Below are positions 4,045-21,142 of a stretch of DNA of 21,142 nucleotides, in pieces. The stretch's first letter is position 1; each line of letters starts with the position of its first letter. The notes under the pieces were generated by a model, which was not told the origin of the DNA, did no database searches, and was given only the letters and a program-made list of their open reading frames with translations. The translations under genes were made by a program, and so were the position numbers. The stretch is taken from IMG/VR virus record IMGVR_UViG_3300001523_000043, positions 1-21,142 of that record, one strand, 5' to 3'. The stretch comes from a virus.

Positions 4045-5510
4045 CTATTCGATACCGTAGGCCTGAGCTAGTACTCCGGCTACCCATCTACAACATGATT
4101 AAGGATGTCCTGGCAGGACCTACAGCAGTCAAGGAGGCCGGTATACGTTACCTGCCTATGCCTAACACTGAGAAAGATGATAAGGCCAATAGAGACCGTT
4201 ACCTTCCCTACAAACTAAGGGCTCAGTTTTACAATGCATGTGCCCGGACACTTGATGGTCTGGTAGGCCAGATCTTTTATAGGGATCCTGTCATTGAACT
4301 GCCGGCTATTCTGGCTCCACTGATCGAGAGTGTGGATGGTGGGGAGCTAAGCCTTTATCAGCAAGCTAAGGAAGCCTGCAGCCAGGTTATCCCATTGGGG
4401 CATGGTTGCTTACTGACTGATTACCCCACAACCGAACGGGCTGCCACACGTCGGGAACTGATGGATGGAAAGGTACGACCCACTATTACCCTTTATACGC
4501 CTGAGCAGATTATTAACTGGCGATGGGCTACACTGGGGGCTAAGAAGTACCTGTCCCTGCTGGTATTGGAAGAGACTTTCGATAAGGAAGATAACGGGTA
4601 TGAAATAGAGCTGGGTACTCAGTGGCGTGAGTTCCGGGTTGAGAATGAAGAGGGTAAGCGGATCCTCCACTGCATGGTCTGGCGTGAAACAGACATCGGC
4701 CTGGTTATAGCTCAGGACTTTTATCCCAAGATGGGTAATGGTAAGTCTTGGGAAGAAATACCCGTTAGCTTTATCGGGTCGGTTAACAATGATCATGTAC
4801 CTGACAGACCGCCTTTTGAGGACATGGCCCATATTAACATCGGACACTATCGGAACTCAGCCGATTACGAAGAATCCTGTTTCATGGTAGGCCAACCGAC
4901 TCCTTGGGCATCAGGTTTAACTGAGGCCTGGGTTGACGAGGTCTGGAAGGGTGAACTCCGGTTGGGATCACGGGGCATTGTCCCCTTACCCGTGGGGGGT
5001 TCATTTGGTCTGGCCCAGGCTGCTCCTAATATCATGCCGATGGAAGCGATGCTGGCCAAAGAGAAACAGATGGTAGCACTGGGGGCCAAGATCGTTGAGC
5101 AGGCCCAGGTACAAAAGACAGCAACGGAATCTTCACAACAGAATGTGGTCGAATCCTCTACCCTGTCCACTGTGGCCCAGAATATCTCCTCCGGTTATAC
5201 CAAGGCCATTCAATTCTGCCTGATGTATTTAAACTCCAATGATAAATTCGAGTTTGCATTGAATACCGATTTCGAAGTCAGCACTATGAATGCCCAGGAG
5301 CGTCAACAGCTGATGGCTGAATGGCAGGGCGGGGCTATTACCTGGGATGAATACCGTTGGAGCCTAAAGCGGACTGGTGTGGCTTATATGGATGATGCTA
5401 AGGCCAAGACCCAGATCGAAAGTGAAATCAGTCTAAATGTGGGGGGTATTACTAATGGCCAGGAAGAAGAAGAAGACGCTGAGTCAGATAATGAAGGAGA
5501 TGTTTCCTGA
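4041..5510 (+). CDS. Portal protein (DUF4055 type)
   Basis: A 489-residue protein that should form the dodecameric ring at the capsid vertex through which DNA passes. The N-terminal half matches the DUF4055 portal pattern: RYLPYKLRAQFYNACARTLDGLVGQIFYRDP at about 53-83 (shown here only as its key blocks RAQFYN, RTLDGLVG and FYRDP), then DGGELSLYQQA and GHGCLLTDYP around 98-127. The middle includes the YTPEQIINWRW region. The C-terminus has the Gln- and Ser-rich helix ESSQQNVVESSTLSTVAQN, typical of the clip/crown portion, and a very acidic tail. It is immediately downstream of terL and upstream of the head morphogenesis gene, the standard position. A small gene overlaps its last 56 bases in another frame. 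Confidence 0.9.
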   Translation: MTIRYRRPELVLRLPIYNMIKDVLAGPTAVKEAGIRYLPMPNTEKDDKANRDRYLPYKLRAQFYNACARTLDGLVGQIFYRDPVIELPAILAPLIESVDGGELSLYQQAKEACSQVIPLGHGCLLTDYPTTERAATRRELMDGKVRPTITLYTPEQIINWRWATLGAKKYLSLLVLEETFDKEDNGYEIELGTQWREFRVENEEGKRILHCMVWRETDIGLVIAQDFYPKMGNGKSWEEIPVSFIGSVNNDHVPDRPPFEDMAHINIGHYRNSADYEESCFMVGQPTPWASGLTEAWVDEVWKGELRLGSRGIVPLPVGGSFGLAQAAPNIMPMEAMLAKEKQMVALGAKIVEQAQVQKTATESSQQNVVESSTLSTVAQNISSGYTKAIQFCLMYLNSNDKFEFALNTDFEVSTMNAQERQQLMAEWQGGAITWDEYRWSLKRTGVAYMDDAKAKTQIESEISLNVGGITNGQEEEEDAESDNEGDVS

Positions 5511-5578: not shown

Positions 5579-7357
5579 ATGGCTGACATCAGATATAAGA
5601 TTGATGCTAGATCCAGTCCTGATGTTAATGTCATCCAGGACTTAGCTGAGGCAATAATTAATGCAATAGAGAAAAGTATCCCTGAAGCAAACAGGGGTCA
5701 AGTATCTGTTGCTATTAACACCCTCGGGGATGGGTACTCGATGGATATAGTGGGCTTTAAGAAAAAGTCTGCTGTTGCTCTGGATGCTTTTGACCCTACG
5801 GACATGCAACCTGGATCATTCAACTATTCGATAGTCCGCCAGTTTAATTTCGATGAACAGATTCTAGATCTGGATACTTTTATCATTGATAAAGATCTCC
5901 AGGGTCAGGGCATATCTAGAACTGTTCATAAGTTACAATTAAAAACTGCCAAGAAGCTGGGTTTTAAAGGTTATCAATTAAACGCCAATATGGACGTTGG
6001 TGGATACGCTTGGCTTAAGGCTGGTATGTCCCCCCCTGATGTAAAGTCACTCAGGTTTGCTTACCAGAATAAAATCTTTGAGTATGAGTTAGATGAACCT
6101 ATTACTGACAGCCTGAAGGTTCTTGAAAAAGAACTGGATAAAATACCAGACTCCAAGCTGTTGGCCACTATCAGGAAGAATCCGGAAAGATATAAAGAAG
6201 CTTTTTTAGATACCAGTTGGCGGGGGGGTCTGCAATTCGATGATCCAGCAGCTATGGATATGCTGGAGAAGTACATTGATCCCGTAAAGATTAAGAAAGG
6301 GGGGGTCAGTAATTACTACATTGATATTGCCACTCGGCACCAGGTTTATCTGGAGCGATTAAAGACTGGTCTGGCAGATGATTACGATAAGGTGATCACA
6401 GGGGTCAACAAGGACATTACGACGGTCCTGGCTAGGCTCGAAGGGGATAAGCTGGGGGATTTACCCAGGAAAGAGTTCAAGGCCCTTCTGACTGATCTCA
6501 GAACCACTCAGCTGGAAGCCTATAGTGATCAAACCAATTTATTGGTATCAGATCTACAGGAGCTGGCTGGTGATGAAGTCACGTTTGAAATCGAAGCGAT
6601 CTCAAAAGCGGCTACTGTCAAGCAGGTTAAGGCAGCAGTTAAGGTGTGGCAGGCAGTACAACGTCAACCATTGCAATCCAGTGGTCAACTATTGGATCCC
6701 TTCCTCAAAGAACTAACTGGTCGCCAGATACTGAGGGTTGAGAATCAGCTTAGGACATCCCGAGCCCAGGGTATGACTATTGGTCAGACTGTTAGGGCCA
6801 TTAGGGGTACCAAGGCTAATAACTACACCGATGGGGTACTGGGTAAAAACTGGTCGGATGCTAGAACTGTGGTACGTACTGCCACGCAGCATGTATCATC
6901 CCAGGCACGCACGGCCACATGGATGGCTAACGATGACCTGATCAAGGGGTACCAGTGGGTCTCTACACTGGATGGGGTCACATCGGCTACATGCCGTACA
7001 CTGGATAGTAACGTCTTTAAACTGGGCGAAGGTCCACTACCACCGATACATCCAAACTGCAGATCAACACATGTGCCTTACTTCAGGGATACTGTTGAAC
7101 TGTTCTCAGAAGGGGCAACCCGTTCTGCGGAGTTTGGTCCGGTGAAAGCAAACGTCTCTTATTACGACTGGCTTAAACGTCAGCCGGTAGCTTTCCAGAA
7201 TGATGCCATTGGGGTAACACGCGGGAAGTTACTTAGGGGTGGGGGTTTATCATCCGAGAACTTTGCTGACTTGCAATTGAATAAGAATTTCAAATCCCTT
7301 ACTCTTGCTGAGATGAGGGAACTTAAACCCAATGCCTTCGAAAGGGCTGGAATCTAG
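5579..7357 (+). CDS. MuF-type head morphogenesis protein with N-terminal GNAT-like domain
   Basis: A 592-residue minor capsid protein made of two parts. The C-terminal part, from about residue 245, is the phage head morphogenesis (SPP1 gp7/Mu gpF) type: helices rich in Gln and Arg, VRTATQHVSSQART at about 432-445, GYQWVSTLDGVTSATCR at 457-473 and PPIHPNCRSTHVPY at 488-501, then a conserved tail ending LTLAEMRELKPNAFERAGI. The N-terminal part, about 40-165, resembles a GNAT acetyltransferase: a strand LDTFIID, then DLQGQGISR at 106-114 fitting the Q-x-x-G-x-S/A acetyl-CoA loop, a helix, and NANMDVGGYAWLKAGM at 135-150. Related proteins next to DUF4055 portals usually lack this part, as far as I know. 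It may be injected or internal to the head; enzymatic activity is unproven. Confidence 0.85.
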   Translation: MADIRYKIDARSSPDVNVIQDLAEAIINAIEKSIPEANRGQVSVAINTLGDGYSMDIVGFKKKSAVALDAFDPTDMQPGSFNYSIVRQFNFDEQILDLDTFIIDKDLQGQGISRTVHKLQLKTAKKLGFKGYQLNANMDVGGYAWLKAGMSPPDVKSLRFAYQNKIFEYELDEPITDSLKVLEKELDKIPDSKLLATIRKNPERYKEAFLDTSWRGGLQFDDPAAMDMLEKYIDPVKIKKGGVSNYYIDIATRHQVYLERLKTGLADDYDKVITGVNKDITTVLARLEGDKLGDLPRKEFKALLTDLRTTQLEAYSDQTNLLVSDLQELAGDEVTFEIEAISKAATVKQVKAAVKVWQAVQRQPLQSSGQLLDPFLKELTGRQILRVENQLRTSRAQGMTIGQTVRAIRGTKANNYTDGVLGKNWSDARTVVRTATQHVSSQARTATWMANDDLIKGYQWVSTLDGVTSATCRTLDSNVFKLGEGPLPPIHPNCRSTHVPYFRDTVELFSEGATRSAEFGPVKANVSYYDWLKRQPVAFQNDAIGVTRGKLLRGGGLSSENFADLQLNKNFKSLTLAEMRELKPNAFERAGI

Positions 7358-7368
7358 GAGCGGTGCTC

Positions 7369-8076
7369 ATGAAGTTTAAAGTAACTAAGGCCCAATTCGA
7401 CGCTTTGTCTGATGACATGAAAGCGGAGTACAAGGCAGAGGGTGAGGAGTATATCCTTACAGTGGAAGGCGGGGAAGATACCGGTGCACTTAAACGTGCT
7501 AAGGAACATGAAAAGACCCGTCGTCAAGCAGCTGAGACCAAGCTGACTGAAACCCAGACCAAGCTGACTGAAACCCAAAGCGAATTGGAAACCCTGTCAG
7601 ACAGTGCCGGATCTGGGGATAAGGATGTGGCTAAGCTGGAGGCCAAGTGGACCAAGAAATTCTCAGATCGTGAGACTGAGCTGTCCGGTGAACGGGATGG
7701 GTTTAAGGGGGAGATCCAACGTCTCATGGTTGATAACGTGGCTATGGACATGGCTCGTAACCTGAGTGATTCTCCTGGTCTGCTTATCCCCCATATCAAA
7801 AGTCGCCTTACTGTTGAAATGGTAAATGGTAAAGCGGTGACTAAAGTTAAAGACGCTGATGGGGAACTGTCAGCACTAACTGTGGACGAGCTCACAAGTG
7901 AGTTCAAGTCCAACAATGACTTTGCCTCGGTAATACGTGGAGGCGAAGGCTCCGGTAGCGGTGCTAGCGGGGGCCAGGGTAAGGGAGGACAACAACCTTC
8001 CAAACCTGACTTTGCAAAGGCCTCAACTAAAGAGGTTGCTGATTACCTTACATCTCAAAAGGCTAAAGGGGCATAA
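7369..8076 (+). CDS. Scaffold protein
   Basis: A 235-residue, highly charged, mostly helical protein just before the major capsid gene, the classic place for a scaffold. Residues about 45-115 are a coiled coil containing two copies of the heptad KLTETQT, encoded by a perfect 21-base tandem repeat. A Gly/Ser-rich flexible linker (GGEGSGSGASGGQGKGGQQ) lies at about 189-207, and the C-terminus from about 208 (PSKPDFAKASTKEVADYL) probably contacts the capsid protein, as in other scaffolds. It should guide procapsid assembly and leave or be degraded before packaging. No protease motif is visible. The ATG at 7369 is preferred to a GTG at 7363 because the AGGAG site is eight bases before the ATG but only two before the GTG. 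Confidence 0.8.
   Translation: MKFKVTKAQFDALSDDMKAEYKAEGEEYILTVEGGEDTGALKRAKEHEKTRRQAAETKLTETQTKLTETQSELETLSDSAGSGDKDVAKLEAKWTKKFSDRETELSGERDGFKGEIQRLMVDNVAMDMARNLSDSPGLLIPHIKSRLTVEMVNGKAVTKVKDADGELSALTVDELTSEFKSNNDFASVIRGGEGSGSGASGGQGKGGQQPSKPDFAKASTKEVADYLTSQKAKGA
7536..7577 (+). repeat. Perfect 21-base tandem repeat, two copies
   Basis: Bases 7536-7556 and 7557-7577 are identical and encode two heptads (KLTETQT, KLTETQS-like) of the scaffold coiled coil. The 21-base period keeps both frame and heptad phase, so copy number could change without disrupting the protein. Confidence 0.9.
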
Positions 8077-8109
8077 GGCCCTCGGATCCTACAACTGGAG
8101 CTTTAAATT

Positions 8110-9069
8110 ATGGCACTTTCCGATTTGGAAGTATTCCAAGAATACGCACAAACCTCTATGACTGAGGTGCAAGACCAGGCTATTGATAAGTTCAATGGTT
8201 CTGTCCGTGGCGGTATCATCCTGACATCCGCTGCCCATGAAGGGGACTTCTCCTCAACTGCAATCTGGGCTAAGATCAGTGGTCTGGTACGTCGTCGTAA
8301 TGCTTATGGAACCGGCACTGTTACCCAAAAGATTCTGAGCCAATTGGTTCGGACTACCGTTAAGGTGGCTGCTGGTACTCCTCCGATTGAAATCAATCCG
8401 GGCATGATGAAGTGGATTCAAAAGTCTCCCCAGGAAGCCGGTGTAGTAATCGGCCGACAGATGGCTGAGGATTCCATGGCTGATATGCTCAACACTGGTA
8501 TCATGATCTATACGGCTGCCGTTGGTAACGTAACCGCTTTGAATCACGATGGCACTGCTGCCACAGCTAAGCTTGAATCGCTGATGACCGGAGCTTCCAA
8601 GTTCGGTGATCGGTCTCAGGACATTGTGGCCTGGCTGATGCATTCCAAGTCTGCCTTCGACATCTATGGTCAAGCTCTGGCTAACAGTCAACGACTGTTT
8701 AACTTCGGCAATGTCCAGGTAATGGATGATGGTTTTGGTCGACCACTGATCATGACCGATTCTCCCAACCTGCTGTTCGACAATGTCGGAACTGATAACT
8801 ACTACCAGATGGGTCTTTCAACTGGTGGTATTATCGTGGAGCAAGGCAACGAGTACACTGATAACATCGAAACCAGTAACGGCGATGAAAACATCCTTCG
8901 TACTTACCAGGCCGAGTGGGCTTATCAGATGGGCATGAAGGGCTTTACTTGGGATACAGCAAATGGCGGTAAGTCTCCGACTGATGCTGCTCTGGGTACT
9001 GCTGCCAACTGGGATCGGGTTTCTACTTCCGATAAAGACTTGGCCGGGGTATTGGTCACAACTCTCTAA
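8110..9069 (+). CDS. Major capsid protein
   Basis: A 319-residue protein after the scaffold and before the connector genes. The overall pattern fits a major capsid protein with an HK97-like fold of the type classed with capsid protein 13-like families: an early helical segment (LEVFQEYAQTSMTEVQDQ), a middle domain with VRRRNAYGTGTVTQ and INPGMMKWIQKSPQEAG, the long helix IGRQMAEDSMADMLNTG, and a late region with FGRPLIMTDSP and ENILRTYQAEWAYQMGMKGF. It lacks a long N-terminal delta domain, which agrees with a separate scaffold gene. Codon use is more regular and more CpG/C-ending than its neighbours, as expected of a highly expressed gene. GGAG lies nine bases before the ATG. A hairpin terminator follows. 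Confidence 0.9.
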   Translation: MALSDLEVFQEYAQTSMTEVQDQAIDKFNGSVRGGIILTSAAHEGDFSSTAIWAKISGLVRRRNAYGTGTVTQKILSQLVRTTVKVAAGTPPIEINPGMMKWIQKSPQEAGVVIGRQMAEDSMADMLNTGIMIYTAAVGNVTALNHDGTAATAKLESLMTGASKFGDRSQDIVAWLMHSKSAFDIYGQALANSQRLFNFGNVQVMDDGFGRPLIMTDSPNLLFDNVGTDNYYQMGLSTGGIIVEQGNEYTDNIETSNGDENILRTYQAEWAYQMGMKGFTWDTANGGKSPTDAALGTAANWDRVSTSDKDLAGVLVTTL

Positions 9070-9093
9070 TCCTGTGGATTAGTTAAAAATAGG

Positions 9094-9120
9094 TAAGGGG
9101 GGCTTAGGTCCCCCTTATTT
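9094..9120 (+). terminator. Hairpin terminator after the capsid gene
   Basis: Bases 9094-9101 (TAAGGGGG) pair perfectly with 9110-9117 (CCCCCTTA) around an eight-base loop, and are followed by TTT. The U-tract is short, so termination is probably partial and acts to set capsid protein expression above downstream genes. The ribosome site of the next gene begins directly after it. Confidence 0.6.
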
Positions 9121-9130
9121 GGAGATCAAT

Positions 9131-9580
9131 ATGATTAGCAAGAAAAAGGTTCTGTTCTTTACTCTTAAGCAGGTTACTGCTCAGGAGATTGAATTCGGTA
9201 AAGCTATCCGGGCTCAGTTCCGTGACTCAGTGGTAGCTGGTCGGAATGAAACGGAGGAATGTGATTATGTGGCGGGCCATATTCCAGACAATTATGCTGA
9301 GTTTCCTGAGTATCCAGCAGACGCCGCTGAGGCGCTCACAGGCTCCACTGATTTACAGGGCGTTGTATCCCCTGAGGGTAACAGTGAACAAGGTAACTCA
9401 GGTCCTGCTCAGGTCCTGCAAGAATCAGATCTTACGCTGGATGTCCTGGAAAAAATGGGTAAGGATGAATTATTGGACCTGGCAAGCCAATATGATGAAA
9501 TCGGGTTGACCCGGGTTCAAAAGAAATCGGCCCCTAAACTTCGGGTTGCAATTGCTGAGTATTTAGAAATTCTGGAATAG
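9131..9580 (+). CDS. Head-associated protein with C-terminal SAP/LEM-like helix pair
   Basis: A 149-residue protein between the capsid and connector genes. The N-terminal 60 residues (MISKKKVLFFTLKQVT through YVAGHIPDNYAEFP) are a compact region seen in capsid-neighbour proteins of related phages by pattern. A low-complexity, Ser/Gly/Glu-rich linker follows at about 60-100. The last 45 residues (LDVLEKMGKDELLDLASQYD and onward to AIAEYLEILE) look like a helix-extended-loop-helix or SAP-type module. It could be a capsid decoration or head-completion protein; no enzyme motif is seen. The start is the ATG seven bases after GGAG. A TTG twelve bases earlier would leave no ribosome site, so it was not used. 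Confidence 0.7.
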   Translation: MISKKKVLFFTLKQVTAQEIEFGKAIRAQFRDSVVAGRNETEECDYVAGHIPDNYAEFPEYPADAAEALTGSTDLQGVVSPEGNSEQGNSGPAQVLQESDLTLDVLEKMGKDELLDLASQYDEIGLTRVQKKSAPKLRVAIAEYLEILE

Positions 9581-9593
9581 CTGGGGACACCCT

Positions 9594-9625
9594 GTTATAA
9601 TCCCCCTTCAGGGGGGCATTATAAC
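9594..9625 (+). other. Long intergenic RNA hairpin with a 2-base bulge
   Basis: GTTATAAT (9594-9601) pairs with ATTATAAC (9618-9625), and CCCCC (9602-9606) pairs with GGGGG (9611-9615) around a TTCA loop, leaving two unpaired bases (9616-9617) on the 3' side. This gives 13 pairs. There is no U-tract, so it looks more like an mRNA stability or processing element than a terminator. Confidence 0.65.
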
Positions 9626-9634
9626 TAGGGTTCA

Positions 9635-9659
9635 GTACCTCCCGTCCTGGGGGGACTAC
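9635..9659 (+). other. Second intergenic RNA hairpin of the same design
   Basis: CCTCCC (9638-9643) pairs with GGGGGG (9649-9654, one wobble) around a five-base loop; outside it GTA (9635-9637) pairs with TAC (9657-9659), leaving AC (9655-9656) bulged on the 3' side. It repeats the architecture of the hairpin ten bases upstream. The rest of the 119-base gap up to 9699 holds only the ribosome site GAGGTG for the next gene. Confidence 0.5.
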
Positions 9660-9699
9660 CGTTACTACCCTGCTATCCACTTCTTCATGAGGTGTTGAT

Positions 9700-10188
9700 A
9701 TGGCCCTGGTAATAGAGGATGGCTCCGGAGTTACTGGGGCTAATTCATATAACAGTGTACAAGAAATAAAAGACTTCGCTGAGCTTCGCGGAGAACTCCT
9801 TCCAAGTACTGATTCAGAAATTGAAATGCTGGCAATCAACGCCATGGATTACATGGAGCAATATCGATACCAGTATCAGGGAAGTCCAGTAGATCCCCTC
9901 CAAGGCTTATCCTTTCCCAGAACTGGGGTCAGTGTGGATGACTATGCTTATCTGCCAACCCAAATCCCCGTCCTATTAAAGAAAGCCCACATACTGGCAT
10001 CCATTCAGGCTTACACTGCCGACCTTAATCCAAACCCCACTCCATCAGTTAAGAAAGAGAAGGTGGATGTAATCGAAGTGGAGTATATGGACACAGCTAT
10101 GTCATCCACTGGGTTCCCGAACATTGAATCATTGGTGTATCCACTGCTTCGTACAAGGGGCGGTTTGATTAACGTGGTGAGGGCATGA
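9700..10188 (+). CDS. Head-tail connector (adaptor), DnaT-like family
   Basis: A 162-residue protein starting MALVIEDGSGVTGANSYNS, the characteristic opening of phage adaptor proteins that databases label DnaT-like single-strand-binding. The body is helical, with DSEIEMLAINAMDYMEQ, LSFPRTGV and QIPVLLKKAHILASIQ, and ends in a C-terminal strand region. This gene class lies just after the capsid genes and is expected to form the first ring below the portal. The DnaT name is probably misleading; position and the adaptor pattern favour a structural role. GAGGTG precedes the ATG. The stop overlaps the next start (ATGA), so translation of the connector genes is coupled. Confidence 0.8.
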   Translation: MALVIEDGSGVTGANSYNSVQEIKDFAELRGELLPSTDSEIEMLAINAMDYMEQYRYQYQGSPVDPLQGLSFPRTGVSVDDYAYLPTQIPVLLKKAHILASIQAYTADLNPNPTPSVKKEKVDVIEVEYMDTAMSSTGFPNIESLVYPLLRTRGGLINVVRA

Positions 10189-12689: not shown

Positions 12690-12997
12690 AGAATTATACC
12701 CGATGGGAATACCGGCTCCAAAAGGCACCAGCTGGATCTAAGCAAAGTCTTAGGTCCAGTCTAATGCAGGTATATAAGACAACTGGGGTTAAGCCTCAGT
12801 TGTTATTGGATAGGCCTGAGTTCCCTGATGAGCTTTTCTATATTTGGAAATGGCACTGCGGGATGGGGAACCCCCAACAGCTATCTAACATAGAATTAAA
12901 AGCTTGGGCCGATTTAATGAGAATTGAATTGGAGATATGGGAGGTTGAGGTTCTACGCTCTCTTGATAAAATATATTGGGGGATAGTTAATGAATAG
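12668..12997 (+). CDS. Frameshift extension of tail assembly chaperone (gpGT-like)
   Basis: The -1 frame is open from the slippery site to the TAA at 12995-12997 and would add 109 residues, giving a fusion of about 233 residues comparable to lambda gpGT. The extension starts QERVGLLENYTRWEYRLQKAP, continues through TGVKPQLLLDRPEFPD and YIWKWHCGMGNPQQLSNIELKAWADLMRIELEIW (key blocks only), and ends just after the tape-measure ATG at 12990. An ATG at 12764 could start a 77-residue protein, but its only upstream ribosome-site candidate lies inside a stable hairpin, so the frameshift route is favoured. The GT part is expected to bind the tube protein while the G part binds the tape measure. Confidence 0.8.
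   Translation, partial: QERVGLLENYTRWEYRLQKAPAGSKQSLRSSLMQVYKTTGVKPQLLLDRPEFPDELFYIWKWHCGMGNPQQLSNIELKAWADLMRIELEIWEVEVLRSLDKIYWGIVNE
12675..12718 (+). other. Stem downstream of the slippery site, probable frameshift stimulator
   Basis: GAGTCGG (12675-12681) pairs with CCGGCTC (12712-12718) with one U-G wobble, enclosing 30 bases that may form a small inner CCC/GGG hairpin. The stem begins six bases after the heptamer, the usual distance for a frameshift-stimulating structure. Confidence 0.5.
12732..12759 (+). other. Stable 11-bp hairpin inside the frameshift extension
   Basis: Bases 12732-12742 pair with 12749-12759 around the loop CAAAGT, with one U-G wobble. The hairpin lies within the extension reading frame, begins 64 bases after the heptamer, and ends four bases before the ATG at 12764. 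It could pause ribosomes or hide the AGGT element ahead of that ATG. Confidence 0.6.
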
Positions 12998-15377
12998 GAT
13001 AGCTAGTCTAATAATCAGGGCAGACAGTAGGGGGCTAGATACCGCTACTTCCGAACTAGACCGATTAGAAAGACAGGGGGGAAGAACAGAACGGGCAACG
13101 GACGGTGTGGCATCTTCAATTAAGGGGATGGTATTAGCCTCAGTATCCGTTGGGGCTATGACTGCTGCTATATCTAAGCTTATTTCTGTCAGCAGTAACT
13201 TTCAAAACTTGAATGCTTCCCTTGTAACTGCAACGGGTAGTGCTGAGAATGCCGCAATAGCCTTTCAGGCAATACAAGACTTCGCTACTAAGACCCCTTA
13301 CGACCTCAACCAAGCAACTGATTCATTCCTTAAACTGGTTAACCTGGGACTAACACCCTCAGAAGAAGCCATGATGTCGTATGGCAACACTGCATCGGCA
13401 CTGGGTAAGAACCTCAACGATATGGTGGAAGCGGTAGCTGACGCGGCCACAGGGGAGTTCGAACGGCTTAAAGAGTTTGGTATCAAGGCCAGTAAGGAAG
13501 GGGACAGGGTTAAGTTAACCTTCCGGGGTATCACTAAGGAGGTTGGTAATAACGCCTCCGAAATTGAAGACTATCTGATAGCTTTGGGTAACAATGAATT
13601 TGCTGGTCAGATGGAAAAGCAGATGGCTACCCTGGGCGGGGCTATCAGCAACTTCAATGATGAATTCACCAAAGTGGTTAGTAACGTTGCCCAGATGGGT
13701 GCTTCGGATATTATCGAGGATGCTTTCCGGGCTGGCACTGATGCTCTGACAGAATTGAATGCCATGCTTGCTTCTGGTGAATTGCAGGCTCGCATGGATG
13801 CTTTCTTTGGCAAGTTCACTGGATATGCTGAGGATGTGGACAGGTCACTTCGGTATATTACGGATATCTTTGAAGCATACAGTGATGAATGGGGGGATGA
13901 TGCCACATCCAGTGTGGATGAGATAATCAGTGCCTTCACTGATATGCCTGAAAACATACGGGCTGCTATCCAGCTTGTGGTTGTAGAGATTGCTTCCCTG
14001 GTGGATGCCGGCCGAATATTTGGCCAGGCTATGCTGGATATTATCGTTGTCAAGTTTGATCAGCTGGCTGCCGAAGCAAAGGTTTATGGTAAGTCCATGG
14101 CCAATGCACTTAACCCCTTCTCTGACGAATATGACTTGAGGGGGGAGTTAGATGCTGTTATCTCAGAATACTCCGCTAAGACTGGGGATATCTGGGCAGG
14201 TGGTAATGAGCAGTTAGCAAGAACAGCTGATATAAGAAGGGCTTCTATTAGCTCAATACTGGATGAGAGGGATGAATCCCTTAAATCAACTGATGAACAA
14301 ATCAGTGCTGCGGATAAGCTCAGGGAACAATGGGACAAAACTAACGAAGCCCGTCAAGCTGATACCACTGATAAGCTGGCTCAATTTAAAGTGGGGGGCG
14401 ATGCTTCCACTGATGAGGATGGAGGGGATAGTAAAGCAGCAGATAAGGCCGCTAAGCAATTCGATAAGCTGGTTGAATCCCTCCGTAATGAAGAGGAAGT
14501 AATATCCCAGTCTTACGAAGCTAGAAGGAAAATGATCTTTGCTAATACTGATGAGGAATCAGAAGCCCGTAAGAAACTGATGGAAAGGCTGGATGCTCAA
14601 CGGGATGAGCAGTATTCTAAAATGGCCAGGGATAGGGTAAGCGATGTAGAAAAGATTCGGGAATCACTTCTCAGTGAAGAGGAAGCTTTACTAGAGTCTT
14701 ACGAAAGGAAGCGGGAGATAGTACTCGAGAATGAGTATATAACCGAAGAACAAAGACAGGAGTTAATACTAGGTCTTCAACAAGACTACGTTGAAAAGAC
14801 TAAGCAGTTAGAAATGGAAAGGATTGGGGCAGTGCTTAATGCTGGTGAGCAAATGTTTAGTGGATTAGCTGGCCTGGCTAAAGCTTTCGCTGGGGAACAG
14901 TCCACTGCCTACAGGGCTATGTTCGCAGTGTCTCAAGCCTTTGCACTTACTGACGCCACGATGAAGATGTATCAGGCCATCCAGGGGGCATGGGTAAGTG
15001 CTCCGTTCCCCGCTAACTTAGGTCCTGTGGCTATAGCTACTGCTGAGACCGGGGCTAACGTCGCTGCGATCGCCTCACAGAGCTTCAGTGGGGCGTACGA
15101 TAAGGGGGGTATGATTCCCACCGGTAAGGTAGGCTTAGTGGGGGAGATCGGCCCTGAGCTGGTCTCTGGCCCCGCTCGTGTAGTGGGTCGTAAGGATACT
15201 GAGGCACTGATGAAAAAGTCAGCCCCCCAGGAAGAAAATAAGGATAGGGGCATCCGTATTATAAATAGCTTTGATACTGGTGTGATAAACGACCACATGT
15301 CATCCCCTGAGGGTGAGCAAGTAATGCTTAATGTTATCCGTAGGAACCGGACAGTCATTAGAAGCATGGTGGGATGA
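12990..15377 (+). CDS. Tape measure protein
   Basis: A 795-residue protein that sets tail length and is ejected with DNA. The N-terminal 260 residues match the tape-measure N-terminal domain: RADSRGLDTATSELDRLERQ, a hydrophobic stretch at about 46-70, FQNLNASLVTATGS, IQDFATKTPYDLNQAT and the EFGIKASKEGD region. Residues about 490-620 are a coiled coil containing two related copies of a roughly 50-residue unit (496-545 and 558-607). A Gly/Ala-rich hydrophobic region at about 625-700 and the block YDKGGMIPTGKVGLVGEIGPELV precede the tail. Using the usual 0.15 nm per residue, the tail would be about 120 nm. The ATG overlaps the end of the chaperone extension and follows a GGGGGA site. Confidence 0.92.
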   Translation: MNRIASLIIRADSRGLDTATSELDRLERQGGRTERATDGVASSIKGMVLASVSVGAMTAAISKLISVSSNFQNLNASLVTATGSAENAAIAFQAIQDFATKTPYDLNQATDSFLKLVNLGLTPSEEAMMSYGNTASALGKNLNDMVEAVADAATGEFERLKEFGIKASKEGDRVKLTFRGITKEVGNNASEIEDYLIALGNNEFAGQMEKQMATLGGAISNFNDEFTKVVSNVAQMGASDIIEDAFRAGTDALTELNAMLASGELQARMDAFFGKFTGYAEDVDRSLRYITDIFEAYSDEWGDDATSSVDEIISAFTDMPENIRAAIQLVVVEIASLVDAGRIFGQAMLDIIVVKFDQLAAEAKVYGKSMANALNPFSDEYDLRGELDAVISEYSAKTGDIWAGGNEQLARTADIRRASISSILDERDESLKSTDEQISAADKLREQWDKTNEARQADTTDKLAQFKVGGDASTDEDGGDSKAADKAAKQFDKLVESLRNEEEVISQSYEARRKMIFANTDEESEARKKLMERLDAQRDEQYSKMARDRVSDVEKIRESLLSEEEALLESYERKREIVLENEYITEEQRQELILGLQQDYVEKTKQLEMERIGAVLNAGEQMFSGLAGLAKAFAGEQSTAYRAMFAVSQAFALTDATMKMYQAIQGAWVSAPFPANLGPVAIATAETGANVAAIASQSFSGAYDKGGMIPTGKVGLVGEIGPELVSGPARVVGRKDTEALMKKSAPQEENKDRGIRIINSFDTGVINDHMSSPEGEQVMLNVIRRNRTVIRSMVG
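14475..14810 (+). repeat. Degenerate internal repeat in tape measure coiled coil
   Basis: Protein residues 496-545 (starting ESLRNEEEVISQSYEARR) and 558-607 (starting ESLLSEEEALLESYERKR) align without gaps at the pattern ESLxxEEExxxxSYExxR, offset by 62 residues. The DNA copies have diverged, so the duplication is old. Confidence 0.65.
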
Positions 15378-15379
15378 TT

Positions 15380-16513
15380 ATGGAACTTTGGCCTTTTATA
15401 CCTCAAAGCGGAATGACTGAAAGCCTGGAGTGGTTAACCAATGTTATAAGGGCTAAGGCCGGGGAGGATAGGATCTCACTCAGACACTATCCCCGGCAAA
15501 CCTATGATATAGAGTGTTGGTTATCCCCGGAAGAATATGGCAGGGCTAAGATATTTTGTCGGGAAAACTACGAGGGCTTTTATTTCCCCATGTGGCAGCA
15601 TCATGTAAACGTTGCTGCATTAACCTTTGGTGACAGTGTTATCCCAGGGGATTATAGCTCGGGGGTTTGGTTAGGAAAGATAGTGGTGTGGGACAATTCA
15701 ATTCAATGGGAGATTGCCGAGGTTACTAGTGTCAGTGGGGAACTGGTGTTGTCTGGGGATTTATCCAAAAGTTATCTTCGTCCTGTTATCTGCCCCATCC
15801 AAGAGGTTAACTTTTCCCAGTCATCTGATTTTAAACTAAGCAATGATGATATACGAGTGGGGGGATTTAGGTTTAGATCGATACGGGGAACCCAGTTAGA
15901 GTCTGATGCTGACTACCCCCAGCATAGGGGTATAGACGTGCTGACAGATCCTAACATCCTGTCCGGTCAATTAACTGAGCAACACTCACGCGATGTGGAT
16001 GAAATAGATGCTGGTGTGGGTATCATCGAAGTTAACCCCATTTATTCTCAGGCTGAGACTGAGACCATAATGAAATGGGAAACTATAAATAAGGTTGAGC
16101 TTTTATCCACACTAGAATGGGTACATACCCGAAGGGGTAGAAAAATGCCTTTTTGGTATATGAGCCACAACTCGGACTTAGTTCCTATATCCGCCTTGGA
16201 GCAAGATCCGGATAATGCTGCTAAATCCAGGATTCGTATATCAGCCATAAATAAACTAAGTGCTCCTTTTGATATAGCTATCATACATGAATCACTGGGG
16301 GAGGATTACTACCGAGTGGAAAGTGTGGTTGAAGATGGTAGTGGTCAGTATATTTATCTGGACAGGGATCAAGGAAAACCTTGGGACAATAGCTTAATTT
16401 CAATTAGCCTTTTAGTGGGGGTTAGGTTTAAGTCTGATCGGGTAGAAATAAAGTATGGTAATGGGGGGGCAGCTAAGATTGCTGTGCCACTTATAGAGGT
16501 TCCAGGATTATGA
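15380..16513 (+). CDS. Distal tail (tail tip) protein
   Basis: A 377-residue, beta-rich protein directly after the tape measure. It opens MELWPFIPQSGMTESLEWLT, followed by RISLRHYPRQTYDIECWLSPEEYGR; these blocks resemble tail proteins that sit after the tape measure in several siphophage groups. It is in the position of lambda gpM or of distal tail proteins that join tube to hub. No enzymatic motif is visible. The ATG at 15374 overlaps the tape-measure stop (ATGA), but the GGTGGG site touches it directly; the ATG at 15380 has proper spacing and gives the expected N-terminus, so it was preferred. The stop overlaps the next start. Confidence 0.7.
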   Translation: MELWPFIPQSGMTESLEWLTNVIRAKAGEDRISLRHYPRQTYDIECWLSPEEYGRAKIFCRENYEGFYFPMWQHHVNVAALTFGDSVIPGDYSSGVWLGKIVVWDNSIQWEIAEVTSVSGELVLSGDLSKSYLRPVICPIQEVNFSQSSDFKLSNDDIRVGGFRFRSIRGTQLESDADYPQHRGIDVLTDPNILSGQLTEQHSRDVDEIDAGVGIIEVNPIYSQAETETIMKWETINKVELLSTLEWVHTRRGRKMPFWYMSHNSDLVPISALEQDPDNAAKSRIRISAINKLSAPFDIAIIHESLGEDYYRVESVVEDGSGQYIYLDRDQGKPWDNSLISISLLVGVRFKSDRVEIKYGNGGAAKIAVPLIEVPGL

Positions 16514-17955
16514 GCAACGCCCTAACACATCTATATCGATTTTCTGAGATTGGATTCAGGGATCCATTTTCAAGAAACAACAGCCTTTACTTTATACTTG
16601 ATAAGTCCGGATCCATGGGGGAATTTGTGCTTGGATCCAGAACCCGCTTCGATATATCCCGCCAGCAATTAATAGATGTGTTATTAAAGCTGCTTTCCAT
16701 AAAACTGGATAACGGGATAGAGATTGATGTGGGGGTGTGTGTATTTAGTTCAAGTTCCACAGAGGATCTAATTAAAAGGAGTATTGATGAAACTAAGGTA
16801 GATGCTTTAATAACATTTTTAAATTCTTTTTCTCCGAGTGGTGGAACTCCCTACAATACTCCCCTGGCTAAAGCTTCTGACTTTTATTCCTTTTCTACCC
16901 CTGGTTATAGGAGAGCTTGCTTTTTTATAACTGATGGTATTCCTGTTCCTGAGGACTCAGTTGATACTGCCCTGGCCCAAAGTGGGGATTTAATAGGGAG
17001 AAAGGGTAGGTTTAGTAAAGACAATGATAACGACGTAGACATTTATGGAATAGCTGTCGACCTATTTGATGTGGTACAACTGGGTCGTATTGATAACACT
17101 CCCCGGGATGGTATCCAATCAATATCATCCGAAGCTTCCTCGGGATTATCCAATGCACTATTGGCTGCCACATATAAAGAGAACATAGTTTATAACTTTA
17201 CTGATGCACCATTCAATGTGGAATATGGGGGAGAGACTTATATACCTGCCCCTATATCAATGGGAGAGGTTGAAGTAAAGGAAGACATTGCTAAATCAAG
17301 CTTGGATATAACCCTAGGAATAAATAACGTAGCCGCCCAACGTTGGATTTCTGATTCATCTGAAAGTATTATAAATGCCACGGTTTGGCTTAAGGATGAA
17401 ATGGATGATATCTACGTTATATGGAAAGGCAGGCTGTCGGGGAAGAAACCCTCAGGGTCAAAAGTAGAATTAAGTCTGGAGTCAGTTTATACATCACTTG
17501 CTAGGTCTGGACTCGGGGCCAGATATCAAAGGATGTGTAGGCATGGCTTATATGGTAGGGGTTGTGGGGTTAATAAGAATGATCATGTGGTCAGTGGTAT
17601 TCCTTCTGATGTGAGTGGTGCTGTAGTGACAATCAGTGAGGCTTCTGATTACAGCAATGGATGGTTTATAGGGGGCATGTTAGAAACCCCTGACGGCTCC
17701 CTCAGGTTCATTGTGGATCATGTGGGTGATAAGATATATCTGGCACTTGCCATGGACTCCTTATCTAGGCTGTTCGCTAACCAGGGCTATGGTCTTAGCT
17801 ACGGTTTGATATATGGGGGGCTAAGCATTAAGCTTTACCCAGGATGCAACAGGTCTAGATCAATTTGCAATAGCAAGTTTAACAACATAGAAAATTATGG
17901 GGGATTTGATTGGATACCTACCAGAAACCCCTTCGATGGTAATGCTATCAATTAA
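16510..17955 (+). CDS. gpL-like tail tip protein (phage_BR0599) with inserted VWA domain
   Basis: A 481-residue tail tip protein. Residues 1-12 (ALTHLYRF) and 226-475 form a framework of the DUF2163/phage_BR0599 type: YNFTDAPFNVEYGGETYIPAPIS, then CRHGLYGRGCGVN with Cys343 and Cys352, and YPGCNRSRSICNSKFNN with Cys446 and Cys453, followed by NYGGFDWIPTRNPF. In lambda gpL, equivalent cysteines hold an iron-sulfur cluster. Between these parts, residues about 24-222 are a full von Willebrand A domain: MIDAS residues Asp31, Ser33 and Ser35 in DKSGSMG, Thr113 in SGGTPYNT, and Asp142 in ITDG. Strands IDVGVCVFSS and VDIYGIAVD fit the Rossmann-like core. Such an insert is not usual for this family. 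The start overlaps the previous stop (ATGA). Confidence 0.9.
   Translation: MSNALTHLYRFSEIGFRDPFSRNNSLYFILDKSGSMGEFVLGSRTRFDISRQQLIDVLLKLLSIKLDNGIEIDVGVCVFSSSSTEDLIKRSIDETKVDALITFLNSFSPSGGTPYNTPLAKASDFYSFSTPGYRRACFFITDGIPVPEDSVDTALAQSGDLIGRKGRFSKDNDNDVDIYGIAVDLFDVVQLGRIDNTPRDGIQSISSEASSGLSNALLAATYKENIVYNFTDAPFNVEYGGETYIPAPISMGEVEVKEDIAKSSLDITLGINNVAAQRWISDSSESIINATVWLKDEMDDIYVIWKGRLSGKKPSGSKVELSLESVYTSLARSGLGARYQRMCRHGLYGRGCGVNKNDHVVSGIPSDVSGAVVTISEASDYSNGWFIGGMLETPDGSLRFIVDHVGDKIYLALAMDSLSRLFANQGYGLSYGLIYGGLSIKLYPGCNRSRSICNSKFNNIENYGGFDWIPTRNPFDGNAIN
16579..17175 (+). other. VWA domain 1 (MIDAS complete), within the gpL-like protein
   Basis: Protein residues about 24-222. The metal-ion-dependent adhesion site is complete: DxSxS at 31-35, Thr at 113 and Asp at 142. 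Boundaries are estimated from where the phage_BR0599 pattern stops and resumes. The domain should bind a Mg2+ or similar ion and, through it, an acidic ligand residue. Confidence 0.88.
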
Positions 17956-17966
17956 GGAGTAGTTAT

Positions 17967-18200
17967 ATGGTATGGGGATACATAGCGGTATTCGTTGTTT
18001 CTTTGGTTATCAGTTATGCACTGACCCCAAAGCCTCAAAGCCAACCCCCTGCAGGACTGGGGGATTTTAAAGTTCCAACCGCTGAGGAGGGTAGAGAAAT
18101 ACCTGTTATCTTTGGCACTATGGATATTAAAGGACCTAACGTTGTTTGGTACGGAAACTTCCGTTCTGTTCCTGTTAAAAAGAAAGGGGGCAAGAAGTGA
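17967..18200 (+). CDS. Small membrane-anchored tail assembly protein
   Basis: A 77-residue protein with one hydrophobic segment at about residues 2-20 (WGYIAVFVVSLVISYALTPK), then a soluble part with PQSQPPAGLGDFKVPTAEEGR and IPVIFGTMDIKGPNVVWYG. This resembles small proteins encoded just before gpJ-like hub genes, whose last part often looks like the opening strands of the hub protein. The hydrophobic segment may act as a signal or membrane anchor, or may simply pack inside the tail tip. It may play a lambda gpK/gpI-like assembly role. AAGGAG precedes the ATG, and the stop overlaps the GTG start of the next gene. Confidence 0.7.
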   Translation: MVWGYIAVFVVSLVISYALTPKPQSQPPAGLGDFKVPTAEEGREIPVIFGTMDIKGPNVVWYGNFRSVPVKKKGGKK

Positions 18201-18385
18201 TTATATATATGTCCGACATCAGGGCTGCCAGGATGTGTAGTCGGGGAACAAGAGACTTTTTTAAAAGACACGGAATGGATTGGAATAAGTTTCTTAAAGA
18301 GGGATTACCGGTTGAACAGTTTATAAATACCGGAGACCCTATGGCTATGCAAGTTGTGGAGGTGGCACGTGGGCGGAAGCAGTAA
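18197..18385 (+). CDS. Small conserved tail-region protein, 62 residues
   Basis: A 62-residue basic protein: MSDIRAARMCSRGTRDFFKR, then HGMDWNKFLKEGLPVEQF and GDPMAMQVVEVAR. The same kind of small protein sits before the hub gene in other siphophages by pattern, but I know of no function. The GTG at 18197 is taken as the start because a G-run (18186-18190) lies six bases upstream; the ATG at 18209 has no ribosome site at normal distance. The GTG overlaps the previous stop, and the end overlaps the start of the next gene by 17 bases. The single cysteine and basic surface suggest protein or DNA contact in the tail tip, which is a guess. Confidence 0.75.
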   Translation: MIIYMSDIRAARMCSRGTRDFFKRHGMDWNKFLKEGLPVEQFINTGDPMAMQVVEVARGRKQ

Positions 18386-21142
18386 GAAAACAACAGTAGG
18401 CTATAAATACTTCCTGGGGATGCACATGGTCTTATGTCATGGCCCCGTTGATAAAATAACCCGTATTCGAGTGGGGGGCAAAACAGTATGGGTTGGCAAT
18501 CGTCGGTCGGGTAGAATTAACATAGATAAGCCTACTATCTTTGGTGGTGAATCCAGGGAGGGGGGAGTATCAGGTGCTGTAGACTTTGAACCGGGGGAAC
18601 CCACTCAGGGGTTAAACGATTACCTTAGTTCAAACCTGGGATCACTTGTACCTAACTTTAGGGGGGTAGTGGGGATAGTATTAAGGCAAGTCTACCTAAG
18701 CATGAATCCCTACCTTAAGGCATGGGACTTCAGGGTAAGCCGAATTCTGACACGAAGCGGGGGTTTGCCTCAATGGTATCCTGTGGCCGCCAGTATCCCC
18801 ACGGGAGAATCATTTGTAGTAAGACAAAGAATATTACTTTGCATAGATGACTCAGGGTCTATGAATGATTCAGTTGGATCACAAACAAGGTTGGATGTGG
18901 TTAAGTCTAACATCATAAACGTTCTTGACCAAGTGGATATTCTGGCGGGTGAATCAGATGTTCCTGTTGATATAGCTATAGACTTAATGAATGGGGGAGG
19001 TCTTCAAAAACTTAACGCTAGTTCTTCTGATATAAGTAGCTTGAAATCTTATGTTATAGGTATATCAGCTTCAGGTGGAACTGACTTTACATCCCACTTT
19101 GCATACGCTAAAACTTATTTCTCCGCGCACACGGGGGAACGTAATAATGTAATGGTGATGGTAACTGATGGGGTTCCTTCCCCCGTAGAAAACTTTCCTG
19201 GGGCCAGATTAGAAGCTGAGCCTATATTAAAAAGACAAAGTACCTGGTCAGGTAATAATGAGGTTGAGGTTTACGCTATTAACATTGACCTAGGAAATAC
19301 TGACTTTTCAAGACAGCTTGATAATACTGAGGGGGATGGAGTACCCGTAATAGATGGGTCTAGTTCAACAGCACTATTTAATGCTGTATTCTTTGCTTTC
19401 ATGGGTTCCTCCCCTGCTATGAATATTATTCACGCTATTAGGGAATGCATAACAGATGTAATCTGGGGAATGGGATATTCTGAAAGCGAGATAGATGATA
19501 GGTCTTTTATAAAAGCGGCTGATACACTAAGATCAGAAAGACTGGGGGTGTGTCTTATATGGGATAGGCAAAAGCCCATAGAGGATATGGTCCAAGAGTT
19601 ATTAAAGCATGCAGATGCAGCCTTGTATGTGGACAGAAGAACCGGGCTATTTACTATTAAGCTAATCCGAGATGACTATGATCCGGCCACATTGATTCAC
19701 TTAACCGAAGAGAATATTGTTAAGGTGGATGATTTCAACAGGCCTGGGTTTGGAGAACTTACCACATCAGTGACTGTTAACTATTGGAATGTTAACACTG
19801 GTGAAACTGGTAGTGTAATAGCTGAGGATATAGCTTTGGCTAATATGCAACAAGCTAACATCCCCACTACACTTCAGTACCCAGGACTTCCTGACCCCAT
19901 AACCGCAGCTAAGGTTGCACAAAGGGAACTGAAGGCCTTATCAAATCAGTTTGTAAGCTTTACTCTAGAGACTGATCGCATAGCTAAAGATTTAGTAGTG
20001 GGGGATGTGGTTAAAGTAAGCTGGCCGGATTATGGAATAGAAGAAATAATAGTCCGGGTAGTGGGTATAGGCTATGGAGATGGTAAGAATAACAGGATAA
20101 AGCTTTCTGTGGTTGAAGATGTATTTGGTACTCCTTCATTTTCTTACATAGCTCCATCTGAGCCACAATGGGAAGACCCCGCTCAACCACCTACACCGAT
20201 AGTAAGGCAATTAGCTTTTGAAGTCCCTTATCTAGAATTAGTACAAAGACAGGGGGCCGCTATTATAGATGAAGTATTATTGAATAACTCCGACGCTGGA
20301 TTCGTTGGGGCATCAGGTGCAAACCCTGGGGGTTCCATATTAAACTCCAGGCTCTACATTAACAATGGGGTGGGATATGAAGATGTAGCAATGACAGATT
20401 TTACTCCTGTTGCGGACTTACTTGAAGCCGTAAACCAAATAGAAACCATATTTGAACTTTCCAATATTCAAGATCTTGATCAGGTTGTACTTGGAACCTG
20501 GGCTCAGATAGGGGATGAGTTAATTGCTGTGGTATCACTGGACAATGAACTATTGACAGTAAAGAGGGGGGTCTTAGATACAGTTCCTACAACTCACGCT
20601 GTTGGTGACACTATCTTTTTCTGGGATGATTACTCAGTAATAGACACCACGGAGTATGTAACATCTGAAGAAGTACTATTAAAATTAGCCCCAGTAAGTG
20701 GGTCAGGTGAACTACCCCTGTCAGAAGCTACAGAGATGCAAATTACTGTTAGGGGTCGTGCATATAAACCTTTCAGGCCTGCTAACTTAAAGGTTGATGG
20801 AGAAAACTTTCCCGATGTAAACCTCTATCCTGATTACCCTGTGACAATTACTTGGTTACATAGGAATAGGTTACAAGAAACGGGGGGTTCATTAGTTGGT
20901 TACTATGAAGCTTCTATGGACCCGGAGGAAGGAACCACTTATAAAGTGGTCGTTGAAGCACTGGAGGCAGATCAAACGACCGTTGTGGCTGTGGCTTATA
21001 CTGAGTCTGGAATCATTGGAGAAACATTTACTTTGGATCCCAGTGTACTAGGGGAGTATGCTTCAGAACCCTTTATCAAAACTAGTGTTTACTCAGAAAG
21101 GGATGGGGTAGACTCTTGGCAAGCAGGAAGCTTAATATTTAG
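18369..21142 (+). CDS. gpJ-like tail tip/hub protein with inserted VWA domain (3' partial)
   Basis: An open frame of 924 codons running past the window end. It starts at a GTG six bases after GGAGG (18358-18362). Residues 1-140 (MGGSSKKTTVGYKYFLGMHM, CHGPVDKITRIRVGG, then YLSMNPYLKAWDFRVSRI and WYPVA) match the opening of gpJ-like tail proteins. The expected continuation, AMNIIHAIRECITDVIWGMGY, appears only at about 350-370. Between them, residues about 150-347 form a VWA domain with MIDAS residues Asp160, Ser162, Ser164, Thr238 and Asp267. The remainder follows the Phage-tail_3 pattern (RDDYDPATLIHL, KVSWPDYGIEEIIVRV, EDVFGTP), then strand-rich regions including TWLHRNRL, which recall fibronectin-like modules. 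It is the probable receptor-contacting hub. Confidence 0.9.
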   Translation, partial: MGGSSKKTTVGYKYFLGMHMVLCHGPVDKITRIRVGGKTVWVGNRRSGRINIDKPTIFGGESREGGVSGAVDFEPGEPTQGLNDYLSSNLGSLVPNFRGVVGIVLRQVYLSMNPYLKAWDFRVSRILTRSGGLPQWYPVAASIPTGESFVVRQRILLCIDDSGSMNDSVGSQTRLDVVKSNIINVLDQVDILAGESDVPVDIAIDLMNGGGLQKLNASSSDISSLKSYVIGISASGGTDFTSHFAYAKTYFSAHTGERNNVMVMVTDGVPSPVENFPGARLEAEPILKRQSTWSGNNEVEVYAINIDLGNTDFSRQLDNTEGDGVPVIDGSSSTALFNAVFFAFMGSSPAMNIIHAIRECITDVIWGMGYSESEIDDRSFIKAADTLRSERLGVCLIWDRQKPIEDMVQELLKHADAALYVDRRTGLFTIKLIRDDYDPATLIHLTEENIVKVDDFNRPGFGELTTSVTVNYWNVNTGETGSVIAEDIALANMQQANIPTTLQYPGLPDPITAAKVAQRELKALSNQFVSFTLETDRIAKDLVVGDVVKVSWPDYGIEEIIVRVVGIGYGDGKNNRIKLSVVEDVFGTPSFSYIAPSEPQWEDPAQPPTPIVRQLAFEVPYLELVQRQGAAIIDEVLLNNSDAGFVGASGANPGGSILNSRLYINNGVGYEDVAMTDFTPVADLLEAVNQIETIFELSNIQDLDQVVLGTWAQIGDELIAVVSLDNELLTVKRGVLDTVPTTHAVGDTIFFWDDYSVIDTTEYVTSEEVLLKLAPVSGSGELPLSEATEMQITVRGRAYKPFRPANLKVDGENFPDVNLYPDYPVTITWLHRNRLQETGGSLVGYYEASMDPEEGTTYKVVVEALEADQTTVVAVAYTESGIIGETFTLDPSVLGEYASEPFIKTSVYSERDGVDSWQAGSLIF
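18816..19409 (+). other. VWA domain 2 (MIDAS complete), within the gpJ-like protein
   Basis: Protein residues about 150-347. It shows IDDSGSM (Asp160, Ser162, Ser164), SGGTDFTS (Thr238) and VTDGVPSP (Asp267), and the later strand VEVYAINIDL. The hub framework is interrupted between WYPVAASIP and SPAMNIIHAIREC, a loop in ordinary members of the family. The domain resembles VWA domain 1 in its GSxTRxD stretch and in the late LDNTxxDG and ALFNA-like blocks. Confidence 0.88.

Follow-up and report, generated by a model that had tools for sequence, protein, structure and literature searches.

Gene layout and the VWA domains of the window

The window, the whole stretch of 21,142 bases of a virus record that was analysed, comprises a block of packaging, head and tail genes. 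The features of its tail region are the following.

12990–15377, plus strand: tape measure protein (phrog_1538, Pfam TMP_3)
15374–16513, plus strand: distal tail protein (DIT), short form of 379 aa without a VWA domain (phrog_1082)
16510–17955, plus strand: upper baseplate or gpL-like hub protein (JBD30 gp50, DUF2163-type) with an N-terminal VWA domain
16540–17175, plus strand: VWA domain of the hub protein, homologous to that of TipJ, with MIDAS residues D31, S33, S35, T113 and D142
17967–18200, plus strand: small tail protein (phrog_1180)
18197–18385, plus strand: small tail assembly protein (phrog_1196)
18369–21140, plus strand: TipJ, the gpJ-like central tail-tip (baseplate hub) protein, with its C-terminus beyond the window
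18783–19415, plus strand: VWA domain inserted in TipJ, with a full MIDAS
18846–18860, plus strand: first MIDAS motif of TipJ, DDSGS (D160-x-S162-x-S164)
19080–19082, plus strand: MIDAS Thr238 of TipJ (in GGT, 19074–19082)
19167–19169, plus strand: MIDAS Asp267 of TipJ (in TDG, 19164–19172)

An endolysin-like gene (phrog_315, 685–1215) is located 5' of the terminase gene and not behind the tail genes.

The TipJ open reading frame (18354–21140, plus strand) is still open where the window ends, and translation likely starts at the GTG at 18369, which aligns to the MGGSSKK of relatives. Across its whole core the protein is homologous, in sequence and in fold, to the gpJ/TipJ hub of the JBD30 gp53 type. 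It matches phrog_1101 (E 7.7e-278), its closest solved homologue by sequence is 8vjh_A from the phage chi tail tip (E 3e-92), followed by 8rk3_o of JBD30 (E 4e-73), and Pfam places Phage-tail_3 at residues 404–568. The AlphaFold2 model (mean pLDDT 82) is matched by Foldseek to 8rk3_b (E 1e-62), and its TipJ body reaches VIA-align Z scores of 37 to JBD30 and 36 to chi. Foldseek also returned chain C1 of PDB 8fqc, the baseplate of Agrobacterium phage Milano, over about 222 columns at 19% identity; a VWA domain is not mentioned in the main text of the Milano baseplate paper.

An earlier note, made from the letters of this DNA alone, had proposed that the gpJ-like protein is interrupted by a VWA domain with a complete MIDAS, and the insert was confirmed as real and far above chance. 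Pfam reports VWA_2 at residues 160–273 (28.9 bits, cut-off 27; E 1.9e-6). The phmmer alignments to PDB sequences skip the insert, running over residues 7–145 and 355–895 for 8vjh_A and 7–143 and 351–925 for 8rk3_o, so that JBD30 and chi align on either side of it, and in fibre-type relatives the site is just a few residues long. The AlphaFold2 model shows a VWA fold at residues 146–348, which superposes on solved VWAs with VIA-align Z scores of 17–20. All five MIDAS residues (D160, S162, S164, T238 and D267, counted from the GTG at 18369) are present and numbered as claimed, and the borders, given earlier as 18816–19409, proved right if slightly narrow, the insert of 211 aa extending from behind WYP up to AMN (18783–19415). 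Among solved sequences, the closest match is the vWFA domain of LapA (PDB 9no5, E 1.7e-5). LapA and an Aeromonas protein (9das) share the VWA fold but are large adhesins of the bacterial cell surface and do not belong to phage tails, and intracellular VWAs (TFIIH) match the model as well as adhesins do.

The description of the insert as a second VWA was borne out by the adjacent hub gene, which encodes a homologous domain. The hub protein matches phrog_15205 (E 1e-161), contains VWA_2 and Phage_phiJL001_Gp84_N according to Pfam, and has solved homologues in 8vjh_D and 8rk3_g by sequence and in 8rk3_O by Foldseek (E 2e-19). Its cysteines C343/C352/C446/C453 repeat the intervals of 9 and 7 residues seen in JBD30 Cys147/156/238/245 (PMC11445458), a metal-cluster spacing common to the JBD30 hub and lambda gpL (PMC11445458, PMC10721106).

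The position of the insert near the N-terminal part had been contrasted with lambda, which holds only in part. Lambda gpJ, like TipJ of the window, combines the gpJ fold with an extra domain in its N-terminal half, the Ig-like insert 72–215 (FNIII-A; PMC10721106), but the site appears to differ, since a weak profile alignment (probability 27%) places the VWA slot just before about residue 268 of lambda gpJ; identity of the slot with the FNIII-A site was accordingly rejected. Extra peripheral domains are also found in the DIT and megatron proteins of roseophage R4C, where they were proposed by the authors to serve host adhesion, and VWA is not mentioned in that paper (PMC10276861).

Distribution of the VWA subfamily and contents of the TipJ slot

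TipJ profiles were used in three scans of viral contigs and genomes, which contributed about 230 further loci, and about 250 related loci were compared. More than 100 other loci match the window in the position of their TipJ VWA, including those of the cultured phages PaMx28, Mallos, V45iii, QH3, Bordetella MW2/FP1/CN1/CN2, Bhz59, Elanor, R6L and ZS04, whereas in RcTitan and RcHartney the domain is in DIT and not in TipJ. In tblastn searches with either VWA of the window, only 26–27 of 50,697 phage records matched, and all the matches examined fell within a TipJ, hub or DIT gene. The idea that the insert is peculiar to the phage of the window was thus rejected, as the subfamily occurs in 27 phage records and more than 100 loci. 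That ordinary gpJ-like proteins have no equivalent domain is true of many TipJ homologues, but many others do have one. Three loci on two contigs of an Anaerolinea MAG (Chloroflexi; L109–L111) are about 50% identical to TipJ of the window and all of the type with VWAs in TipJ and hub; they are possibly misbinned phage contigs.

The VWA copies of TipJ, hub and DIT form a single subfamily with the common motif DNTPxDGVPV, to which the domains of PaMx28, Mallos, the Bordetella phages, R6L and RcTitan belong together with those of the window, although their position varies among these cultured phages (TipJ and hub, TipJ alone, or DIT). The MIDAS residues are kept in close as well as distant relatives, with DxSxS intact in 143 of 144 tail VWA copies and the metal Asp present in nearly all. 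The one copy found with a broken DxSxS is the DIT VWA of locus L248, whose DIT open reading frame is unusually long.

As judged from the VWA tree, the domain has moved repeatedly and independently among TipJ, hub and DIT: the DIT copies require three changes, all of them forced by starred branches, and the hub copies two, one of them forced in this way. Two loci (L045 and L175, the latter from Wenxinia marina) hold a VWA in both TipJ and DIT, which looks like recent copying inside one tail-tip cluster. At L175 (DIT open reading frame 3478–5169, TipJ open reading frame 6462–9848), the DIT VWA nests among alphaproteobacterial TipJ copies. A non-VWA domain is likewise shared between genes, since the N-terminal extension of the R6L DIT (L021) resembles residues 150–312, the TipJ insert of locus L105 (33%, E 1e-20).

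The site of the VWA in TipJ is occupied differently in other relatives. It is a loop of a few residues in Ab18, Bhz54 and JBD30, measures about 18 residues in phage chi and about 20 in phages with a DIT VWA, and in the remaining relatives holds either a VWA or a different domain. The only clear identification other than VWA is the Laminin_G_3 lectin domain of loci L082 and L083, which lies above the Pfam cut-off. The others resemble beta-rich binding domains, which is a suggestion drawn from sub-threshold matches or likeness by eye, namely a beta-galactosidase all-beta domain for the inserts of L053 and L163 and a propeller for those of L158 and L173. In the Mesorhizobium group (L158, L166 and L173), the insert of about 346 aa is repeat-like and possibly a propeller. 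Apparent inserts at three fibre loci (L003, L004 and L006) were discarded as artefacts, the slot being short there and the extra sequence lying upstream. On a TipJ tree built without the slot region, the 13 representatives with non-VWA contents need 13 changes, which indicates frequent turnover, including between the close relatives R6L and L105. These patterns suggest that the VWA site is a display slot for exchangeable domains.

Fibre genes and VWA domains

Phage JBD30 grips type IV pili by its gp47/gp48 fibres, which are numbered between the tape measure protein gp46 and DIT gp49; domain I of DIT wraps the fibres, which attach at sites formed by DIT, the upper baseplate protein and the hub (PMC11445458). 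VWAs are found in exactly these three fibre-holding proteins (here DIT, hub and TipJ). TipJ and the hub of the window are homologous to their counterparts in the JBD30 baseplate (PDB 8rk3; gp49, gp50 and gp53), and the JBD30 DIT is matched by long-form DITs. JBD30 combines a near-empty slot with a long DIT and the gp47/gp48 pilus fibres and lacks a VWA, whereas the window has no gp47/gp48-like genes between tape measure and DIT, as the stop of the former (15377) overlaps the start of the latter (15374), and belongs to the fibre-less class. Its DIT matches phrog_1082 only at 509–895, the core part, and does not have the JBD30-type N-terminal fibre-holding extension (domains I and II).

This relationship was examined in 186 complete loci comprising DIT, hub, TipJ and upstream sequence. 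None of the 80 fibre loci contains a VWA. The 106 fibre-less loci include 87 with a VWA, 17 with another slot domain and two with neither (L167, whose DIT open reading frame has an extra C-terminal stretch, and L170); in the fibre-less class, DIT is preceded by a long open reading frame (median 839 aa). The VWA is in TipJ in 57 of the 87 loci, in TipJ and hub in 12, including the window, in DIT in 16, and in TipJ and DIT in two. The association between fibres and VWA gives a raw Fisher p of 2e-34, which ignores relatedness; clustering of the core at 60% identity leaves 15 fibre, 25 VWA, 11 other-insert and two clusters with neither. Fibre genes were also not found elsewhere in the VWA genomes of RcTitan and QH3 (whole genomes) and PaMx28 (91% of the genome). 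On the fibre side, Ab18 ORF66 resembles chain 8rk3_S of the JBD30 fibre (E 6e-15), and DLP4 (PMC6469090) and AXL1 (PMC9206674), which are of the fibre type by the gene order in those papers, need type IV pili. In the related phage AXL1, mass spectrometry placed the tail hub protein gp43 in the virion (PMC9206674). Among genome-derived loci, Alphaproteobacteria account for 26 VWA and one fibre locus and beta/gamma for 15 fibre and six VWA loci, in a sample selected for similarity to a query that itself mostly carried VWAs.

Proposed role of the tail-tip VWA

The VWA is probably a tail-tip adhesion module that replaces lateral fibres in the first attachment step. The domain would be displayed outside the tail tip, in a surface loop of the TipJ trimer. 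In the phage of the window, a second, related VWA is located at the N-terminus of the adjacent hub, which would give six VWAs per tip if TipJ and hub each have the three-copy stoichiometry of JBD30. With a divalent metal bound in its MIDAS, the domain would attach to a cell-surface ligand, for which a pilus, a protein or a glycan are candidates, and this binding may constitute the first, reversible step of adsorption, taken over from the lateral gp47/gp48 fibres of JBD30. A metal-dependent attachment domain is plausible, and the presence of a lectin and other domains in the same slot, together with VWA in place of pilus-binding fibres, fits receptor binding. The broader proposition, that an integrin-like, metal-dependent VWA moving among DIT, hub and TipJ has taken over from pilus fibres as the main means of host adhesion across a large set of phages and prophages, mostly alphaproteobacterial in the sample, is put forward tentatively, at slightly below even odds. 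A separate downstream gene could encode the main receptor binder; for PaMx28 gp34, encoded downstream of TipJ, no relative was found in the PDB. The open-access papers examined contained no receptor data for Mallos, Elanor, PaMx28 or RcTitan.

Some receptor-binding domains are hypervariable, unlike the VWA described here. Its divergence nearly keeps pace with that of the TipJ core, so it is not hypervariable, and the accelerated evolution expected from an arms race was not seen. The similar pace favours a ligand that is itself conserved or, alternatively, a role that is in part structural. The latter, in which the MIDAS would bind another tail protein (the TipJ VWA binding the hub VWA, or DIT) and the domain would seal or stiffen a surface that fibres otherwise cover, also agrees with the presence of two VWAs together in 12 of the 186 loci, including the window, and with the protein–protein contacts that VWAs make inside complexes such as TFIIH. 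However, one VWA suffices where it is confined to TipJ (57 loci) or to DIT (16 loci), and a specific internal contact would hardly permit a lectin and unrelated domains to occupy the same slot, which makes a structural role unlikely.

The exclusion between fibres and VWA could instead reflect shared ancestry, two tail-tip lineages happening to differ in both traits and the VWA being no replacement of fibres. The fibre state changes only three to four times on the tree, which is consistent with such an explanation and represents too few switches for an independent-pairs test to reach significance. Nevertheless, PaMx28 (VWAs, no fibre genes) and PaMx74 (fibres, no VWA) are of opposite types despite tape measure proteins that are 76% identical, and their DIT, hub and TipJ are only 31–56% identical, so that whole tail-tip cassettes seem to have been exchanged. 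Moreover, QH3, although filed as Septimatrevirus, is of the VWA type, and 104 of the 106 fibre-less tips hold a VWA or another slot domain. Shared ancestry is therefore considered improbable.

Integrin-type VWAs change conformation on binding, which would suit a trigger, in which ligand or metal binding alters the shape of the domain and makes the hub open the tip for DNA ejection. The slot is also located in the tip-closing protein (PMC11445458), but hub opening, raised as an option in the earlier note, gained no supporting evidence and is the least probable explanation, since a VWA placed on DIT or the hub N-terminus is unlikely to share one mechanical link to the gate, and relatives with a short slot loop manage without a VWA.

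VWA matches had already been annotated in tail genes, as in PHROGs and in the MW2 record, where TipJ is named 'von Willebrand factor type A'. In the open-access literature searched, no paper was found that describes a tail-tip VWA insert, its movement among three tail-tip proteins or the exclusion of pilus fibres, and the other phage VWAs encountered there (Kuttervirus, RsoM2USA and Hardycor1) are not demonstrated as tail proteins. If the adhesion reading is true, phages use, in a swappable slot, the kind of metal-dependent adhesion domain known from integrins and pilus-tip adhesins, and VWA phages should require a divalent metal for adsorption. The kind of receptor used by uncharacterised phages could then be guessed from the tail-tip module (fibre, VWA or lectin). 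The moves between genes indicate that a domain can shift between the subunits of one machine, apparently with its role retained.
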